NCBI GenBank assembly: GCA_020720815.1
Contig: DYNY01000001.1
Location: forward strand, 29,304 to 74,533
Direction: 5' to 3'
Length of the DNA: 45,230 nt
Source of the DNA: Candidatus Elulimicrobium sp.
GTDB lineage: Bacteria > Patescibacteriota > Minisyncoccia > Phycocordibacterales > UBA918
The position numbers and the translations under genes are program-made. Numbering within the stretch: position 1 is the first letter of the stretch; every line of letters starts with the position of its first letter. The notes beneath the pieces were generated by a model, which worked only from the letters and a program-made list of their open reading frames with translations, was not told where the DNA came from and did not search any database. This document shows positions 9,567 to 19,464 of this stretch, one piece after another.

Positions 9567-11066
9567 TTAAAATTCGTCCAGATAAGAAACTTTTGCCCCT
9601 AAAGAAGTTAAGCGTTCGATGAGTTTCTCATAGCCTCGGTTAATACTGTAGATATTGCGTAGGATAGAGTGGCCTTTGGCTCCCAACATGGCAATGAGAA
9701 GTATAGTGGCAGGGCGTAGAGCTGGTGGACAGATGAGCTCAGCTGGTTTGAGTGGGGTTGGGCCGGTGATGTAAATACGGTGTGGGTCTGCTAGGACTGT
9801 TTCGGCACCAAGCTTATCAAGTTCAGTAAAATAGATGGCACGTTTCTCGTAAACCCAATCATGAATAAGAGTTTGACCTTCGGCCTGAGTGGCAATGACC
9901 GCAAAAAAAGGAAGGTTGTCAATATTTAATCCCGGATAAACAGCTGGGTGAATTTTTTCATGCAAAGCTTTAAGCTGTGAAGGTTTGGTTATTAAATCAA
10001 CTAACTTGGTTACACCATTATGACTGAGATAAGGCTTTGATTTTTTGTATTCAAAGCCCATCTTTTCTAGTTTTAGGAGTTCTAGTTCCAAAAAATCAAT
10101 TGGACAACGAGTGATGGTAATAGCAGAATTTGTAACGATAGCAGCTGCAATAAAAAACATCGAATCCGTTGGGTCTTCACTTAGGGTATATTCAACATTA
10201 GTGTTGATATCGGCTACGCCAGTTATAGTTAGAGTAGTTGTACCAATACCTTCGATAACCACCCCTAATTCTTTAAGGAAAAAGCAAACTTCTTGCACCA
10301 TGTAGTTGGCTGAGGCGTATTTAATGATAGTAGTATCGGCCATACCAGCAGCGGCAAAAAGTGTGTTTTCGGTTACTGTATCACCGGATTCGTAGAGTAC
10401 AATTTCGTTTGATTTAGCTGGTGTGCGAGAAATTTCGTAAGTTTCCGATGTGGTTTCAATATTTATACCAAAATTTTCCAAAGCATAGAAATGTGGTCGG
10501 ACAGTGCGACTACCAAGTTTGCAACCACCTGACTGCGGTAGACTGAATTTTTCTAGACTGTGAATTAGTGGGCCGATAAACATTACAATACTACGAGTTC
10601 TTCTAGCCGCTTCGACATTAATTTTTTTTAAATTGAAACGTTTCGGCGGAGTGATTTTGATAGTCGTGTCTTGCCATTCGACGCGCACGCCAATACTCTC
10701 AAGCACTTCAATAATACGGTGCACTTCTTCGATGCGAGGCATGCGGTGCAGGGTAGTGGTACCTCGATTTAAAAGACTGGCACAGAGTAATCCGACCGCT
10801 CCATTTTTTGAGGTGTTGGTTTCAATTACACCCGATAATTTTTTACCGCCTTCGATTTCAATATTTACGGTACCTGGGGAAAGGGTAATAAGATTTTTAC
10901 CAAGGGCCTTACTAATACGCCTAAGCATGTCCGCGCTAACGTTTTGGTTACCACTTTCGATGCGTGCAATAGCGCTCTGAGTAGTTTTAAGAGCTTTGGC
11001 TAAGACAGCCTGGGTCATACCTTTGGTTTCACGAAGATCCGCGATTGATTGTCCAATATTTTTCAT
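9567..11066 (-). CDS. murA: XRE-type HTH domain fused to UDP-N-acetylglucosamine 1-carboxyvinyltransferase (MurA)
   Basis: N-term HTH: IADLRETKGMTQAVLAKALKTTQSAIARIESGNQNVSADMLRRISKALGKNL. MurA body: TSKNGAVGLLCASLL (K/N pair), LPQSGGCKLGSRTVRPH (catalytic Cys loop), EDPTDSMFF, NIYSINRGYEKLIERLTSLGA. Confidence 0.9.
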   Translation of the reverse strand: MKNIGQSIADLRETKGMTQAVLAKALKTTQSAIARIESGNQNVSADMLRRISKALGKNLITLSPGTVNIEIEGGKKLSGVIETNTSKNGAVGLLCASLLNRGTTTLHRMPRIEEVHRIIEVLESIGVRVEWQDTTIKITPPKRFNLKKINVEAARRTRSIVMFIGPLIHSLEKFSLPQSGGCKLGSRTVRPHFYALENFGINIETTSETYEISRTPAKSNEIVLYESGDTVTENTLFAAAGMADTTIIKYASANYMVQEVCFFLKELGVVIEGIGTTTLTITGVADINTNVEYTLSEDPTDSMFFIAAAIVTNSAITITRCPIDFLELELLKLEKMGFEYKKSKPYLSHNGVTKLVDLITKPSQLKALHEKIHPAVYPGLNIDNLPFFAVIATQAEGQTLIHDWVYEKRAIYFTELDKLGAETVLADPHRIYITGPTPLKPAELICPPALRPATILLIAMLGAKGHSILRNIYSINRGYEKLIERLTSLGAKVSYLDEF

Positions 11067-11072
11067 ACGAAA

Positions 11073-11100
11073 TTAATAATAGCATATATGCTATTATTAA
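11073..11100. promoter_or_regulatory. Perfect 28-bp palindrome, candidate operator in the murA/mreB divergent region
   Basis: ttaataatagcata|tatgctattattaa; 6 bp upstream of the HTH-murA ATG, and its outer edge is a -10-like TATTAA on the minus strand. Confidence 0.6.
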
Positions 11101-11140
11101 CCACTTGGTACATTGGTGGAAAAGCGTTACTATATAACAA

Positions 11141-12154
11141 ATGTGGAATAAATTAACTCCTAAAATCGGTATCGACCTTGGTACCACTAGCATTCTTGTT
11201 TTTGTTCCTGGGCAAGGGATTGTGCTTAATGAACCATCTGTTGTCGCTGTTTCCGATGATAACCGGGTTTTGTCGGTAGGGGCTGAGGCTAAGCGTATGA
11301 TTGGCCGCACGCCTGATAGTATAAGAGCGTATCGACCAATGAAGGATGGGGTAATAGCCGACTATCGAGTGACTGAGACAATGCTACGTTATTTTCTTCG
11401 TAAAGCGTTACCACGGTTTAATATTTTTAAACCGGACGTCATGGTCTCTGTTCCGGCTGGCGTAACTTCGACCGAAAGACGAGCGGTGGTGGAGGCGACC
11501 ATTAAGGCTGGCGCACGTAATGCTTACGTTGTAAAAGAGCCAATTTTAGCAGCAATTGGGGCCGGTATTCCTATTTATGAGCCACAGGGTCATATGATTG
11601 TTGATATTGGTGGTGGAACCATAGACGTGGCGGTTATTTCTCTTGGTGGTATCGTGGCGGCTAATTCAGTGAAGTGTGCTGGCAATCGTATCGATACAGC
11701 CATTATTGATTATGTAAAAAAGACTCGTAATCTTTCTATCGGTGAAAAAACGGCTGAAGATATTAAAATCACGGTTGGCTCGGCTTTGCCTTTGGAAGAA
11801 GAGTTGATGATGGAAATTAAGGGTCGCGATGTTCTGTCTGGATTACCGCGCACGACTGAAATCAGGACTAATGAAGTAGTAAGAGCTATTAGTAAAGAAT
11901 TGCGAGAAATGATTAAAGCGATTAAGGATGTTTTTCAGAACACTCCACCCGAATTGGCAGCCGATATTATCGACGGTGGAATAATAATGACCGGTGGAAC
12001 TTCACAATTGAGAAACTTTCCTGAATTAGTGAAAAGACGTACTGGAGTAAAAGCTGAGCTGGCTAATGAAGCATTATTTTGTGTGGTAGCTGGTACCGGT
12101 ATTGCCCTAGAACATCTTGATGCTTACAAGCAAGCAGTTTTGGCTAAGCGGTAG
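11141..12154 (+). CDS. mreB: MreB/Mbl actin-like rod-shape protein (paralogue 1)
   Basis: KIGIDLGTTSILVFVPGQGIVLNEPSVVA; MIVDIGGGTIDVAVISLGG; IIMTGGTSQLRNF. Confidence 0.93.
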   Translation: MWNKLTPKIGIDLGTTSILVFVPGQGIVLNEPSVVAVSDDNRVLSVGAEAKRMIGRTPDSIRAYRPMKDGVIADYRVTETMLRYFLRKALPRFNIFKPDVMVSVPAGVTSTERRAVVEATIKAGARNAYVVKEPILAAIGAGIPIYEPQGHMIVDIGGGTIDVAVISLGGIVAANSVKCAGNRIDTAIIDYVKKTRNLSIGEKTAEDIKITVGSALPLEEELMMEIKGRDVLSGLPRTTEIRTNEVVRAISKELREMIKAIKDVFQNTPPELAADIIDGGIIMTGGTSQLRNFPELVKRRTGVKAELANEALFCVVAGTGIALEHLDAYKQAVLAKR

Positions 12155-12219: not shown

Positions 12220-14985
12220 ATGTCTGAACGTATTCTGGTACAGTTTTCTTCGCCTGAAGAGGAGATTCGCTATTTGCGCGAGCAGATGGCTGTTAAGGAG
12301 CGAGAGCTTATGTCCCGTAGTGCGGAAGTTGATGCCAGTGATATAGAGACAATTGGCAGGCAAGAGCTTAAGGAATATTCACAATTTACACCCAAGGTGA
12401 TACTTTCTAGAGAGCATGGTATGCCTGATTTAGCTATTGCTACTTCGGTGGAGCAGGCTAGTTATTCACCTGATCCAGTCGGAGAGGTAATGAACATTGC
12501 GATTGAGAAAGGCATTCGAAATGCCTTGTCTGTCTTAGAGAAGATGAGTAACGCCTATGTTGTTGATGAAGTACATAGAAAATTGATCGAACACATTCGC
12601 TCTGGAGCCACGATCCAAGATTTACGTGAAGATGTACCACCTTGGCACATGCTTAATATGACTCTTTACGAAGTAACTTTACCGGAGGTTAAGGGAACTG
12701 ATGGAAAAGAGTACCAACTAGCGGAGTTGGTGGGTATGATGGAGCAACTCTTTGCTGGTTTGAGGACCATTGGCTCACAGGAAGCTGAGAATCACTTTGT
12801 GATTGAGATAGCAGTAGCAGACAAGAGTGACGATATTGTTTTTTATGTCGCTGTACCGAGTAAGTTTCAATCTTTGTTTGAAAAGCAGACACTATCACTT
12901 TTTCCCCACGCTGAACTTATTATCCAAAAGCATGATTATAATATTTTCGTTGATAATGGTACATCTATCGTCTCGGAGGCCCAACTTAAAAAGCATCCTA
13001 TTTATCCGCTACGTACGGCTGACGGTTTTTCATCCGATCCATTAGCAGTTATCTTAAATGCTTTTTCAAAAATAGAGAAAGAAGGAGGAGGAGCGGCGGT
13101 GCAGTTTGTGATGCGTCACCCACAAAAGAAGTATCGTAAATCTTATGAAGAAATAATCAAAAATATCGGTAAAGGAATGAAGGCAGGAGAAGCGATTTCA
13201 CGTAGTACTATTGGTGGAGAGCTAATGGGTTCGGTTAGTGACTTCCTTTTTAGTGGTAAAAAGGATAAAGAGGCTGAAATTAAAACATCACCAGACGCTG
13301 ACAAGGTAGAGATTTTTGCAAGAAAAATCAAAGCCGATATAATCGAGACAAATATCAGAATTGCTGTTTCAGCTTTGCAAGAGAGTCGAGCCGAACAAAT
13401 TTTGACTGAAATAGAATCCACCTTTAACCAGTTTGATTTGGTGGAAGGGAATGACATTGGCTTTAAGCGGGCCAGGGGTGGTTCGCTTCTACGTTTACAA
13501 AGAGCCTTTTCGTTTCGTGAGTTCATTAATGACGCTACTTTACCTATATCATTAAACGAACTTTCTACCCTTATTCATTTTCCTGGAAACGGTATTCTTA
13601 GTTCACCGCAATTTAAACAATCCCAGTCAGTCACTGCACCAGCTCCGCTTGATATGCCAACATCCGGGACCCTCTTGGGAGTAAACAAGCATCGTAATGT
13701 GGAGACTCCGATCTATATGACTGAGATGGACCGCATGCGACACCTCTATATTATTGGTCAGACTGGCGTAGGTAAGTCAAAGTTAATGACCAACATTATT
13801 ATTCAGGATATTCAACAGGGTAATGGTGTCTGTATGATTGACCCGCATGGTACTGATATTGAAGAGGTACTGGGAGCCATACCACCGGAGCGAGCTAAAG
13901 ACGTGATTTACTTCGACCCATCGCGCATGGATAACGTGGTTGGGCTTAATATGCTCGAGTACGATATCAATAAGCCTGAGCAAAAAACCTTTGTGGTCAA
14001 TGAGCTCTTTTCGATTTTTCAAAAGCTGTATGGAGCCAATCCGGAGAGTATGGGGCCGATGTTTGAACAGTACTTTCGTAACGCCACAATGTTGGTGATG
14101 GAAGACCCTGAGAGTGGTAATACCCTCATGGATATTTCTCGTGTCATGGTTGATGCTCAGTACCGTCGATACAAATTGTCTAAAGCTAAGAACCCAGTCG
14201 TGGTCCAGTTTTGGACCGAGATTGCAACGAAGGCTGGTGGGGAAGCGTCACTCGAAAATATTGTGCCATATATTGTATCTAAGTTTGACGTGTTTACCGC
14301 TAACGATTACATGCGTCCGATTATTGGTCAACAAAAATCTTCTTTCAATTTCCGTCAATTAATGGATGAGAAAAAGATTCTTTTGGTTAATCTGTCTAAA
14401 GGTCGGCTGGGTGAAATCAACGCCAACCTTATCGGCATGATTGTTGTTGGTAAAATTTTAATGGCGGCGCTTTCGCGTGTAGATGACGTAACTAAAAGCT
14501 TTCCATCGTTTTATCTTCACATTGATGAGTTCCATTTTATTTCTACACCAGCCATTGCTTCGATTTTGTCTGAAGCCAGAAAATATAAACTCAGTCTTAC
14601 TGTAGTGCATCAGTATATTGCACAGCTAGATCAAAATATTAAGGATGCAATTTTTGGTAACGTCGGCTCGATAATTGCTCTACGTGTCGGTACTGAAGAT
14701 GCCCAATTCCTAGAACAACAATTCGCCCCAGTCTTTAATGCTAAAGACATTATGAATATTCCAAACTACAACGCAATCTTACGTATTTTGGCCAACGGCA
14801 TCCCTACTAAACCTTTCAGTATGGCAACTTCGACGCCGATTAAATCAGACCCAGCGCGCGTTCAGGCGATGATAAATGAAAGCGCGGCGCGCAATGGCCG
14901 ACCACGAGCCGAAGTAGAGGCGGAGATATCGGCTAGATACGCCAAGAAGCCAGCCCCTGCGCAGTCTTTGGGTGGTATAGTGTAG
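12220..14985 (+). CDS. VirD4/TraG-like type IV secretion / HerA-superfamily ATPase
   Basis: Walker A HLYIIGQTGVGKSKLM; VCMIDPHGTDIEEVL; Walker B FPSFYLHIDEFHFIST; SLTVVHQYIAQLD. Confidence 0.8.
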   Translation: MSERILVQFSSPEEEIRYLREQMAVKERELMSRSAEVDASDIETIGRQELKEYSQFTPKVILSREHGMPDLAIATSVEQASYSPDPVGEVMNIAIEKGIRNALSVLEKMSNAYVVDEVHRKLIEHIRSGATIQDLREDVPPWHMLNMTLYEVTLPEVKGTDGKEYQLAELVGMMEQLFAGLRTIGSQEAENHFVIEIAVADKSDDIVFYVAVPSKFQSLFEKQTLSLFPHAELIIQKHDYNIFVDNGTSIVSEAQLKKHPIYPLRTADGFSSDPLAVILNAFSKIEKEGGGAAVQFVMRHPQKKYRKSYEEIIKNIGKGMKAGEAISRSTIGGELMGSVSDFLFSGKKDKEAEIKTSPDADKVEIFARKIKADIIETNIRIAVSALQESRAEQILTEIESTFNQFDLVEGNDIGFKRARGGSLLRLQRAFSFREFINDATLPISLNELSTLIHFPGNGILSSPQFKQSQSVTAPAPLDMPTSGTLLGVNKHRNVETPIYMTEMDRMRHLYIIGQTGVGKSKLMTNIIIQDIQQGNGVCMIDPHGTDIEEVLGAIPPERAKDVIYFDPSRMDNVVGLNMLEYDINKPEQKTFVVNELFSIFQKLYGANPESMGPMFEQYFRNATMLVMEDPESGNTLMDISRVMVDAQYRRYKLSKAKNPVVVQFWTEIATKAGGEASLENIVPYIVSKFDVFTANDYMRPIIGQQKSSFNFRQLMDEKKILLVNLSKGRLGEINANLIGMIVVGKILMAALSRVDDVTKSFPSFYLHIDEFHFISTPAIASILSEARKYKLSLTVVHQYIAQLDQNIKDAIFGNVGSIIALRVGTEDAQFLEQQFAPVFNAKDIMNIPNYNAILRILANGIPTKPFSMATSTPIKSDPARVQAMINESAARNGRPRAEVEAEISARYAKKPAPAQSLGGIV

Positions 14986-14994
14986 GAATATAAT

Positions 14995-17900
14995 ATGTAC
15001 GATGAAGAAAAATTTAAACCCATAAGAAGACATGCTAGGGAGACTGGTATTGAAGATCCATTTGTGGATATTATTGATGGAGCAAGACAGATTGAAAATT
15101 CAAGTAATGAGATTTTGCGGTCATTACAAGCTATTCCGTCGGACTACTTAGATTCTGTAGAAGATCTGGTTACAAGATTCAATGTGGCTTTTTTTGCTAT
15201 TAAAATAACCTTGGTAAAATTACTCGAGAAAAATGAAGTGAATGAAAAAAATCTTGACAAAGCGAATGATTTATTAGAAGAGCTTAAAGAACTAAAAAAC
15301 CAAATAGATACCAAACTTATAGAAAGTGTTGAAACAAATCCGGCTACCGGTTTAGGAGACGAATTGGCTGTTTTACCGACTGGTGAAGTTATAAAGTCAG
15401 AAGAAATTAGTAAAAAATTTACGACTGAAAAAGTTGAATACTGGCACGAAATAGCTAAAGAATATAAGTTTGGAAGGTCTTTTATTGATGATGATGGTTC
15501 ATTACTGCCATTAGTTGATAATTTAAAGGAAGCCAGATCAGTATTGATTGATGTAGGTTATGGGGAAGGTAAGAGTATTTTACCTTCTCACCAAAGGCGA
15601 CTCGATGGATTTAGACTTAGAATTGAGCATTTATATAATGATTTGAGGAGATTAGATTCAAAATCGTCACTGACTCGGGAGTCAAGAGAGCGTGAACGCA
15701 TTAAATTATATAGTTTTATTGAAGAAGAGTATGAACATTTAGGGGAATACATTGCTTATCAAATTGAACACTCACCTATATTTCCAGTGTCGCAAGATAC
15801 TATCGATTTAGCTACGTCACCACAATCGATCGAAGATGAACCAGTATTGGTTACTTTTACACAGCACATAGATAATGTTGTTGCCGGGGATGGGCTAAAG
15901 GACGTTGTGGATACAGTAGTGGACCCAGTAATAAAACCTGATTTAAGTAATGTGCCCACACTGGATGTTAATGACATAGTGCATGATCCATTAATTACCC
16001 CTGGGCCCTTTAAAGGAATTGGAAACAGTGATGCATTACGAAACACACCAAACTTAACTGGTGTAGTTGATAATTTACTTGACTCTAAAAAAGACATAGA
16101 AGAAATTGATTATCAGTTTGTGTTTTTCCAAGCTAATTTGATGCGTGTCGTTTCTGTTTTGTCGGGAATTGGTCTAAGTAGTAATCCAGATTTAGAAATG
16201 GCTGAAAAATTAATTTCAGACTACAAGAATTTTGATACTGATACTTTACAAACATTGGTTAATAAATCTGAATATTTATTAAAATTTAAAGATTTATTGG
16301 AAAAAATAAGGTTAGTAAAAATTAAAGGAGATAATGATGGTGAAATTCATTTCGCTCGTATTATAGAGTTAGATGACGATCAGGTATTGGTAGAGAGAAT
16401 AAGTAGTCCTGGATCAAAAATAACTGCACAGTGGGTTACTTTGGCTGAGCTCAAAGAATTAAACTCATCAGATATTTCAGTAGTTGATGCAGTGAATGAT
16501 TTACCGGTTACGGCTAGTGATGCTACTATAGCTGACAACATTCCAATCACTACAGATACTGGTTTGGATAACATGCCCGTTGATGATAATGACCCAGTTA
16601 CTGCTGATGTTCTATCATCTATAGATGACGTTACGGCCACATCCGAAGCGTCTGTTGTTGAGGTTGAATTAACAACAGACGAAGCTTTGGTCAAAGAAAA
16701 AGAAAGTTACTACAGTTTAAGAGATTCAATCTACAAAAAACACCTAGGATTAAAATACTACTATGAACTAGATAGAGCAGAGATACATATTCAAATGATT
16801 GATTATGTAATTTTGAAGTATAAGGACAATGACTCAATTAGAGAGCAAAAAATTAAAGCTAATGTCGAAGCCTTAGCTAAAATAAACGCACGCTTGGCTC
16901 TGGGATTGCAGGAAATAACACTTGAACCAGATGTTACTCAACTTGAAATGACGAGCTCTGATATTTTAGATTCTGAAATATTGCGCGGGGCTACCGTTAA
17001 TTTTGCTGATTTAGAAAATTCTGATGAAGAATTAGAAATTGCAACTCCACAAGCAACCAAAACGCCGGTTGTTTCTGAGAAGGTAGAACCCTCATATCTT
17101 GACTTGGTGGCGGATGACCCGTTAATGAAAGCGACTTTGCTAGAGGAGCAGAAAGCAAAATGGCGTGAGGGAGTAGGATTGTCGCCAGAGCGCCAGATGG
17201 ATACTGTACTTTTTAGTGAAAGAGAGAAAATGCGTGGTGAGTATGCTAAGGAAAGAACTTTGGCTATAGAGTTACGTAGCAAATTTAAAGAAGCAGAGAC
17301 AAATTATCAGACTAGACTTAAGGAATTTTATGAAAATCGCTCGATCTTTAATAGAGCAAGTGGAGCCATCCGCACTTTGTTTGGGAGTAAGCCCAAGTTA
17401 CCACTGGAATTAGTAAAATTACAGACTATACAAAAATACATCAAAGAGCAGTACGCCCTACAACTAAGAGATGCTTGGGTTAAACGAGCCGGAGCATTTG
17501 TTGGTAACAAAGTTCTGGATGAGGCAAAACCAAGTATTAAAAAGGCTTTTGCTGAAAAATTTGTTCTAGAGCCACGCTCTAAACTACTAGAAGTTCAAGC
17601 CGAAGCCTACGAAAAAGTCGCCCAAAATTCAAAATTTAAGCCAATCATGAGTTTTGTGAGGAAACACAGGACAGCTCTACGTTGGCTGGGTTTTGGTATA
17701 GCTTCTGGTACTGGGGCAGTAGCTGGTGGGGCTTTGCTGGCTGGGTTTAATATGGCTCGGGGGGGGATTTCTACTTTTGGTGGCGCAGCCGCAGCCGCTG
17801 GTATTTATAAACTAAAACAGAAGGGGGTTAATGAAGCTATTTCAAATATAAACTTAGAAAAAGAAAAAGTTGAAAATGAATTTACCTTAGCCAAACTTAA

Positions 17901-19464
17901 TGAGTTAGACGAGTCTTTAGCCTTTACTGATTTAGAAGTTGAGAGAACGAAATTAAGACAAAAAGTATACGCTGTTGGGGCGGCCGTAGCATTCGGTGGG
18001 GCAACTAATGTAGGAGCCTCATTAGTTGATACTATTTCTTTGAACGAGGTGACACCAGGTTCTTCTGGTGAGACAAGCACTATAACTGGGGATATATCAG
18101 CGGAGGAGGCACCTATTTTAGTTGATGAGAAACGGGTATCAGAAATACAGGAAAGTGTGAGAAAGATTAATGAAGCGGTAGCCAAAGATAATGCTAGATT
18201 AGCAATTGAAAGGATGGGTGTTAGTTATAAACCTACCGGTCCGCTTAATAATGAAGTCCCGTTAAATTTGGAAGTCACACCGCAGACACTTTTGCAGATG
18301 AGTGGTGTCAAAGTACCCCATTATTCTCTAAATGGTGAGTTACTTTCTCAAACGACAGTTTCAAATATAAGATTGCAAGGAGCTAATACCGAGGCTTTAT
18401 TAGAGACTACTTTACCTCAAGCAAAAGTCATAGAAATCTATTCACATTTAAATTATAAGATCAATGACTTACTCTCAGCCCGACCAAATTTTTCTCAAGT
18501 TGAATTAGAGAAGGAGTTATTTAATGAACTGCAAAATATTTATGGTGGTGAAGAATGGTGGAGATCTGCCAAAATAAATGAAGTCAAGATTGGTTTGATA
18601 GAAGTTGTAAGACCCAATGTTGCTATACCAACTTCTGAGTCTGGAAACTTAACCGCTGATGTTGGTCCAGAAGACTCAATCCCTCCAGGTGAGGCAGTTA
18701 CTGCGGGTCGTACCCTGGTGGGAGATAACCCACAAGGTAAAAGTAATACACCATTGATTGACCAACCAGATTCATTCTTAGGAAAGGAACCAATCATCTA
18801 TACTCGCTCGGGTGGTTTGTCTATAGATGCTGACAATGAAGTTCGCTCAGTACCAATTTTAAAAAATACTTTTGTTGAATACAATCCGACCGAGTCTATT
18901 AATGCAGAAGCGATGTCGACTAAAGAAATCAATCACTGGCCATTAGAACGAACAGAGTCTAGGTTAGTACCACCAGATCCTGATCTTTATACTAATAATG
19001 GTAATTATACCGAATCACGAGAATTTAAAACTTATTTAAATTCAGAATACGGTAGTGTTGAAAGATTTAATAAAATTCTACTAAATCAGGCTTTGGCAGT
19101 AGAAGATGATACTTATGATATGTTTAATAAGTGGCTAAATGAATATCAAAGTCCATATAAGATGAGTTTGGCGAAGATGACTATTGGGGATCTTAAAGAG
19201 GCTTTTGGTGGGCCAGAGCTTGGAAGTAGAGTGGTAGAGGTGGACTCTACAGGTTTACCAAAGCAATACAATACTGAAGCTATCAGACAGTATGCTTCAA
19301 CTAATAATTTTAATTATGAGACAGTACGTAAATGGCTAGTTACTCTGGAAGACTTAAAGCACGAATTCCCGCATCAGAATGGAACCACACTAGAAGATTT
19401 ATTTGCCCGATCGCTTATTAAAGCCGATTTATTAGCCCTCAAGATGGAAGGGATAAGTGTTTAG
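14995..19464 (+). CDS. Giant orphan protein (1489 aa) with an internal Gly/Ala-rich membrane segment
   Basis: Single uninterrupted ORF; charged, partly coiled-coil-like N-terminal two thirds; membrane-like WLGFGIASGTGAVAGGALLAGFNMARGGISTFGGAAAAAGIY; 9 bp gap from the upstream ATPase. Confidence 0.8.
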   Translation: MYDEEKFKPIRRHARETGIEDPFVDIIDGARQIENSSNEILRSLQAIPSDYLDSVEDLVTRFNVAFFAIKITLVKLLEKNEVNEKNLDKANDLLEELKELKNQIDTKLIESVETNPATGLGDELAVLPTGEVIKSEEISKKFTTEKVEYWHEIAKEYKFGRSFIDDDGSLLPLVDNLKEARSVLIDVGYGEGKSILPSHQRRLDGFRLRIEHLYNDLRRLDSKSSLTRESRERERIKLYSFIEEEYEHLGEYIAYQIEHSPIFPVSQDTIDLATSPQSIEDEPVLVTFTQHIDNVVAGDGLKDVVDTVVDPVIKPDLSNVPTLDVNDIVHDPLITPGPFKGIGNSDALRNTPNLTGVVDNLLDSKKDIEEIDYQFVFFQANLMRVVSVLSGIGLSSNPDLEMAEKLISDYKNFDTDTLQTLVNKSEYLLKFKDLLEKIRLVKIKGDNDGEIHFARIIELDDDQVLVERISSPGSKITAQWVTLAELKELNSSDISVVDAVNDLPVTASDATIADNIPITTDTGLDNMPVDDNDPVTADVLSSIDDVTATSEASVVEVELTTDEALVKEKESYYSLRDSIYKKHLGLKYYYELDRAEIHIQMIDYVILKYKDNDSIREQKIKANVEALAKINARLALGLQEITLEPDVTQLEMTSSDILDSEILRGATVNFADLENSDEELEIATPQATKTPVVSEKVEPSYLDLVADDPLMKATLLEEQKAKWREGVGLSPERQMDTVLFSEREKMRGEYAKERTLAIELRSKFKEAETNYQTRLKEFYENRSIFNRASGAIRTLFGSKPKLPLELVKLQTIQKYIKEQYALQLRDAWVKRAGAFVGNKVLDEAKPSIKKAFAEKFVLEPRSKLLEVQAEAYEKVAQNSKFKPIMSFVRKHRTALRWLGFGIASGTGAVAGGALLAGFNMARGGISTFGGAAAAAGIYKLKQKGVNEAISNINLEKEKVENEFTLAKLNELDESLAFTDLEVERTKLRQKVYAVGAAVAFGGATNVGASLVDTISLNEVTPGSSGETSTITGDISAEEAPILVDEKRVSEIQESVRKINEAVAKDNARLAIERMGVSYKPTGPLNNEVPLNLEVTPQTLLQMSGVKVPHYSLNGELLSQTTVSNIRLQGANTEALLETTLPQAKVIEIYSHLNYKINDLLSARPNFSQVELEKELFNELQNIYGGEEWWRSAKINEVKIGLIEVVRPNVAIPTSESGNLTADVGPEDSIPPGEAVTAGRTLVGDNPQGKSNTPLIDQPDSFLGKEPIIYTRSGGLSIDADNEVRSVPILKNTFVEYNPTESINAEAMSTKEINHWPLERTESRLVPPDPDLYTNNGNYTESREFKTYLNSEYGSVERFNKILLNQALAVEDDTYDMFNKWLNEYQSPYKMSLAKMTIGDLKEAFGGPELGSRVVEVDSTGLPKQYNTEAIRQYASTNNFNYETVRKWLVTLEDLKHEFPHQNGTTLEDLFARSLIKADLLALKMEGISV

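Follow-up and report, generated by a model that had tools for sequence, protein, structure and literature searches.

The stretch of DNA analysed here (the window, 45,230 nt) belongs to a Candidatus Elulimicrobium genome of 856 kb, estimated to be 98% complete and distributed over 49 contigs, the closest relatives of which in the named collection are, as recorded, Candidatus Kaiserbacteria, Nomurabacteria and Paceibacterota. A single uninterrupted frame on the reverse strand encodes a helix-turn-helix (HTH) domain fused to MurA, with mreB divergently transcribed on its 5' side and a long palindrome between the two genes. Further along the window, a gene for a VirD4/HerA-like ATPase (12220-14985) is followed by one encoding a 1489-residue protein without a Pfam match (14995-19464). 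The features at the locus are as follows.

9567-11066, reverse strand: HTH-murA, an XRE HTH joined to a UDP-GlcNAc enolpyruvyl transferase, 499 aa (open reading frame, Pfam and subfamily profiles, AlphaFold2)
9579-10865, reverse strand: MurA catalytic body, residues 68-496 (alignment to solved MurA and orthologue alignment)
10890-11057, reverse strand: HTH DNA-binding domain, residues 4-59 (Pfam HTH_3, HTH_31 and HTH_19; AlphaFold2 helices)
11073-11100, no strand: full 28 bp perfect palindrome (exact match), its outer arms unconserved in relatives
11076-11084, reverse strand: predicted extended -10 of murA, TGC-TATTAT (conserved as TGCTATAYT on the murA side at 39 loci; also L268)
11078-11095, no strand: conserved 18 bp operator core, window version AATAGCATATATGCTATT (upstream comparison)
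11141-12154, forward strand: mreB, divergent from murA (open reading frame and profile matches); co-control possible

The preliminary description of this DNA had recognised an XRE-type HTH continuous with a full MurA, and profile searches bear this out: the one frame matches HTH_3 (PF01381) at residues 8-59 (E 4e-13; 49.5 bits against a gathering score of 23) and PF00275 at residues 72-486 (E 3e-45, spanning positions 2-417 of the 417 in the profile), with no spacer domain between the HTH and the enolpyruvyl transferase body. The score against the MurA subfamily profile NF006873, 309 bits, exceeds the cut-off of 297; that against the TIGR01072 equivalog, 301.6, falls under its cut-off of 392.7. 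An AlphaFold2 model of the protein, with a mean pLDDT of 88.8, has MurA crystal structures as its best fold matches. It contains a four-helix HTH (residues 4-14, 19-26, 30-38 and 45-55), the recognition helix of which is T28-T29-Q30-S31-A-I-A-R-I-E37, and a very short, low-confidence linker, at about residues 60-67, between the HTH and the body.

MurA is the first committed enzyme of cell wall synthesis. The K/N pair and catalytic cysteine that had been reported as kept are K87, N88 and C182, and these, along with R158, R187, D383, R409, R451 and R477, do not vary among 46 orthologues; in order along the chain, the nine correspond to E. coli K22, N23, R91, C115, R120, D305, R331, R371 and R397. 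The 'PTD' motif listed with them (residues 299-301) turns out to align with a non-catalytic IPDRIEAG segment, the catalytic aspartate being D383, within NIDN, the counterpart of the catalytic D305 of E. coli MurA. At the position of E. coli D369, which precedes R371, the protein has Ala449, a residue invariant across the clade in HTH-bearing and HTH-less members alike (46 orthologues). This casts some doubt on catalysis, although a departure at a single residue is not enough to exclude the protein from the MurA family. The enzyme is nevertheless probably active, as it is the sole PF00275 protein found in this 98% complete genome, the window of which encodes two penicillin-binding transpeptidases. 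Overall, it resembles known MurA proteins (TIGR01072/NF006873; E. coli, E. cloacae and C. jejuni 5ujs) in its fold, catalytic Cys loop and substrate-binding residues, but differs in having an HTH that none of the solved MurA structures matched aligns with, and in the alanine at the D369 position.

The palindrome upstream of murA is exact, as originally reported, and 6 bp separate its end from the murA ATG. With an arm of 14 nt it exceeds every other spacerless palindrome of the window, the runner-up having an arm of 9 nt, and the arm did not exceed 10 nt in 40 dinucleotide shuffles of the window; about 3e-4 such 28 bp palindromes would be expected from base composition, and this one occurs once in the genome. 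As a binding site, only part of it stands up to comparison, because the conserved operator is limited to 18 bp, with the consensus TATAGCnnnnATGCTATA across the window's genus, and conservation does not reach the outermost 5 bp at either end. At three other loci (L005, L013 and L081) the palindrome has likewise grown around the 18 bp core, to arms of 12-20 bp that are perfect or nearly so but of unconserved sequence, a pattern of growth that is possibly the product of template-switch correction at palindromes.

Orthologues from several classes of Patescibacteria were collected solely on the basis of protein similarity, and the 220 bp upstream of each was scanned for the dyads TATAGC-n6-GCTATA, TATCTC-n6-GAGATA and TATATC-n6-GATATA, allowing at most two mismatches in 12, for which dinucleotide shuffles give a background of 4.3%. 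Absence of a dyad upstream of orthologous HTH-MurA genes had been named as a refutation of the original proposal, which survived this check: in the de-duplicated, protein-ascertained set, the dyad was present at 74 of 76 loci with the HTH and at none of the 13 without (Fisher p 6e-14, calculated on a nearly identical set before final de-duplication). A tree built from the MurA body alone shows at least 11 changes of HTH state, and the dyad changed with it in all eight phylogenetically independent supported pairs (p 0.008). In an even sampling of the phylum (287 genomes), HTH-bearing MurA was found in 35, from several classes, and the same clade of MurA without the HTH in about 17 more; the remaining matches were to ordinary MurA, with at most 38% identity. 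Within the genus, the AGC-type dyad is absent from the whole of genomes G022 and G027, which have no MurA, and of G016, the MurA of which is HTH-less.

The exceptions are few. An HTH-less MurA in genome G236 (L187/L270) has a perfect dyad, with no other match to the HTH of HTH-MurA in that genome; a recent loss of the HTH is likely in this case, because the sister genes L271 and L272 have neither HTH nor dyad. Two HTH-bearing genes, L253 and L256, are without a clear dyad, the HTH of the latter being degenerate. Most HTH-less MurA genes of the clade have a tRNA-like sequence just upstream (L040, L042-L046, L049, L053 and L258), as if they had lost their own regulated promoter by relocating behind a tRNA. 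In Rfam searches of those loci where a long leader follows the dyad, only tRNAs were found. Three genomes of the window's genus that are 90-99% complete (G022, G027 and G031) have no MurA match, although their siblings have one, representing an apparent loss of the MurA step of peptidoglycan synthesis.

The sequence of the dyad also varies with that of the recognition helix. Residue 29 is tracked by half-site positions four to six: of 70 half-sites paired with Thr29, 69 read AGC, whereas most of the 132 paired with Ser29 read ATC, CTC or ACC and only four read AGC. Both half-sites usually change jointly. In another family, L237 has Thr29 and an AGC dyad, whereas several close relatives have Ser29 and an ATC dyad; L052, with Ser29 and an AGC dyad, goes against the rule. 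As there are only four Thr/Ser switches on the tree, with agreement in two of the three supported independent pairs (not significant), this covariation is by itself only suggestive, but it appears persuasive when combined with the changes that follow HTH loss. From these comparisons we strongly infer that HTH-MurA binds the dyad.

Promoter geometry indicates what such binding might do. The bases conserved among 39 AGC-type loci are precisely the 18 bp and one T, 2 bp further out and on the murA side only, which together with the right half-site forms TGnTATAYT, an extended -10. As the murA-facing half contains this element in the window's genus, binding should block murA transcription, and the natural interpretation is repression through steric hindrance. 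At most loci of the genus about 10 bp separate the 18-mer from the murA start codon, hence the transcript is predicted to be leaderless or nearly so. In three relatives (L062, L070 and L080) the dyad is 110-131 bp from murA, which counts against this interpretation. In L268, the HTH-less gene of G016, TATGCTATACT is kept and the opposite half has gone, a pattern that fits retention of the half serving also as promoter and decay of the one required for symmetry alone.

The dyad could be read as a mere promoter feature (a pair of divergent -10 boxes or a single extended -10) or as an mRNA hairpin, with the HTH being decorative or acting elsewhere: the half facing murA makes a good extended -10, symmetric A+T-rich elements can be promoters, and the dyad at L187 persists beside an HTH-less MurA. 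However, the left half is as strongly conserved as the right only in the presence of the HTH, decaying once this is lost, and both halves change together with the recognition helix. At L133 and L139, upstream of a small membrane protein gene, the dyad instead occupies the spacer between TTGACA/TTGACT and TATAGT/TATACT, and the leaderless start predicted in the genus would leave the dyad outside the mRNA. Hence we regard this explanation as very improbable. Self-regulation of murA through the dyad, the first half of the original proposal, appears strongly supported by the joint gain and loss of HTH and dyad, the covariation of helix and half-site, and the overlap of the dyad with the murA -10.

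The second half of that proposal, coupling to mreB, does not hold in general: the divergent neighbour at 103 loci with both HTH and dyad is mreB in 39, murB in 11 and another gene in 50, with too little sequence in the other three. As the dyad persists without a divergent mreB, the latter is not what keeps it, and coupling of MreB to MurA was rejected as a core function; it is best interpreted as a neighbour effect specific to certain lineages, with joint control of murA and mreB being possible in the window's genus. Where mreB is the neighbour, 40-100 bp usually separate its start from the dyad, which flanks the mreB promoter region on the upstream side; in the window, 45 bp separate the operator core from mreB. 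This common arrangement in the genus, outside the likely mreB -10, would suit an activator, or a dual regulator repressing murA and activating the divergent mreB or murB, and XRE proteins can activate from upstream positions. Yet in most lineages without mreB no gene has the dyad in an activator position, and the dyad found 8-11 bp from the start of murB overlaps the promoter of that gene too, making activation unlikely.

The dyad pattern far outnumbers its reversed control in the 38 genomes of the genus, and the extra sites lie upstream of glmS, pta (PF01515) and a gene for a small protein with one transmembrane segment. A dyad is found within 300 bp upstream of 10 of 18 glmS genes, against a shuffle expectation of 1.4% (p 1.6e-14); G031, a genome with no MurA match, has a glmS that is not preceded by one. 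Outside the genus, ATC-type dyads are found between divergent murB and murA genes, mostly at the distance from murB given above, before homologues of the small protein gene that sit beside tgt, and near a PF00144 hydrolase gene; these second sites were found through a search for the dyad itself, and so their neighbours are leads and not counts. Dyads wholly inside genes (e.g. L118, L119, L124, L142, L145, L150 and L153) were treated as chance occurrences. GlmS opens the route to UDP-GlcNAc, which MurA consumes, and MurB catalyses the next step; hence the regulon follows the pathway. In the window's own genome, no glmS was found and dyads at one mismatch are not in excess (25, against 29 for the reversed-pattern control, per strand), so no regulon beyond murA is claimed there, and murA appears to be the only clear target.

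We propose that HTH-MurA is a bifunctional 'trigger enzyme'. The MurA body would make UDP-GlcNAc-enolpyruvate, whilst the N-terminal HTH would bind the 18 bp dyad, presumably as a dimer, covering the extended -10, excluding RNA polymerase and thus repressing murA. In relatives it would also occupy the dyads at murB, glmS, pta and the small membrane protein gene, and may thereby set the level of the UDP-GlcNAc-to-UDP-MurNAc pathway. UDP-GlcNAc, or the feedback inhibitor UDP-MurNAc, held in the MurA body might alter the geometry of the HTH dimer and so the degree of repression, a link to ligand that the identity of the targets suggests. The sensing of UDP-GlcNAc or PEP put forward in the preliminary description would likewise be conjectural, with indirect support from the glmS and murB sites, which lay beyond the sequence available to it. 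Judged on sequence comparisons, it is highly probable that the protein is both enzyme and autorepressor in the manner of BirA, and that it tunes MurA and, in relatives, often the supply of UDP-GlcNAc. We place at about even chances the fuller proposal that, across much of Patescibacteria, MurA is a transcriptional sensor of peptidoglycan precursor status, reporting occupancy of its active site by UDP-GlcNAc or UDP-MurNAc and repressing murA, murB, glmS, pta and a new family of small membrane proteins via one dyad, perhaps with some adjustment of mreB in the genus. An HTH and a dyad would suffice for constitutive autorepression, in which the amount of MurA is fixed by feedback on itself and no ligand is sensed, and there is one target in the window's genome; however, the very short linker joins the HTH to a substrate-binding body, and targets such as glmS and murB suggest control by the state of the pathway, as in BirA. 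Such ligand-independent control is consequently a credible but somewhat doubtful account.

The principle of an enzyme acting as a repressor is already known from BirA, which senses biotinyl-AMP, and from PutA, which is catabolic, has a different DNA-binding fold and is switched by redox state and the membrane. BirA, the group II biotin protein ligase of E. coli, B. subtilis and S. aureus, is an enzyme with an N-terminal HTH that represses the supply genes of its own substrate (PMC4016012, PMC6391492, PMC6978683). HTH-MurA would likewise combine enzyme and HTH in one polypeptide with an operator in promoters of its own pathway, although the enzyme fold and HTH class differ and its universal target is its own gene. 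PutA is a trigger enzyme in which a proline dehydrogenase carries a DNA-binding domain and directly represses transcription (PMC6978683), a doubling of roles that HTH-MurA may share. The passages of a 2026 review of peptidoglycan regulation retrieved by keyword (PMC13204101) describe control of precursor synthesis by CodY on murA, murC and murD, by DdlR on ddl and by GlmZ on glmS, in which the regulators are separate factors or RNAs, in contrast to a DNA-binding domain on the enzyme itself; those passages mention no DNA-binding MurA. None of the papers listed by searches of a library that covers a minority of subscription papers and no bioRxiv preprints describes a MurA fused to an HTH, a MurA acting as a trigger enzyme, or regulons for wall synthesis in Patescibacteria.

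If the proposal is true, a widespread antibiotic target would also be its own transcription factor. MurA is inhibited by fosfomycin. The system bears on how organisms with genomes of about 0.8 Mb, and few regulators, adjust wall synthesis, and it offers a testable set of an 18 bp operator, a Thr/Ser29 recognition code and a regulon predicted to include the supply of substrate through glmS. The protein and its operator could be tested in E. coli, without culture of the host.

Two families of single-transmembrane proteins are found downstream of dyads. In L116, L120 and L128, a dyad lies 80-350 bp upstream of a gene for a protein with an N-terminal motif like those that bind DNA (..KATEVARHLGYTSDYVGQLCRAGKVEA..), the one member tested having no Pfam match. 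The other family, of 50-75 residues, in which neither of the two members tested matched Pfam, begins M[FR][KR][AS][IL]G... (MFKAIG... in the genus) and is encoded beside an AI-2E transporter gene (PF01594) or tgt, at L117, L123, L130, L133, L138 and L139 (near position 2500), and at L210, L212, L213 and L215. L210 carries two copies of this small protein gene, each with a dyad of its own.
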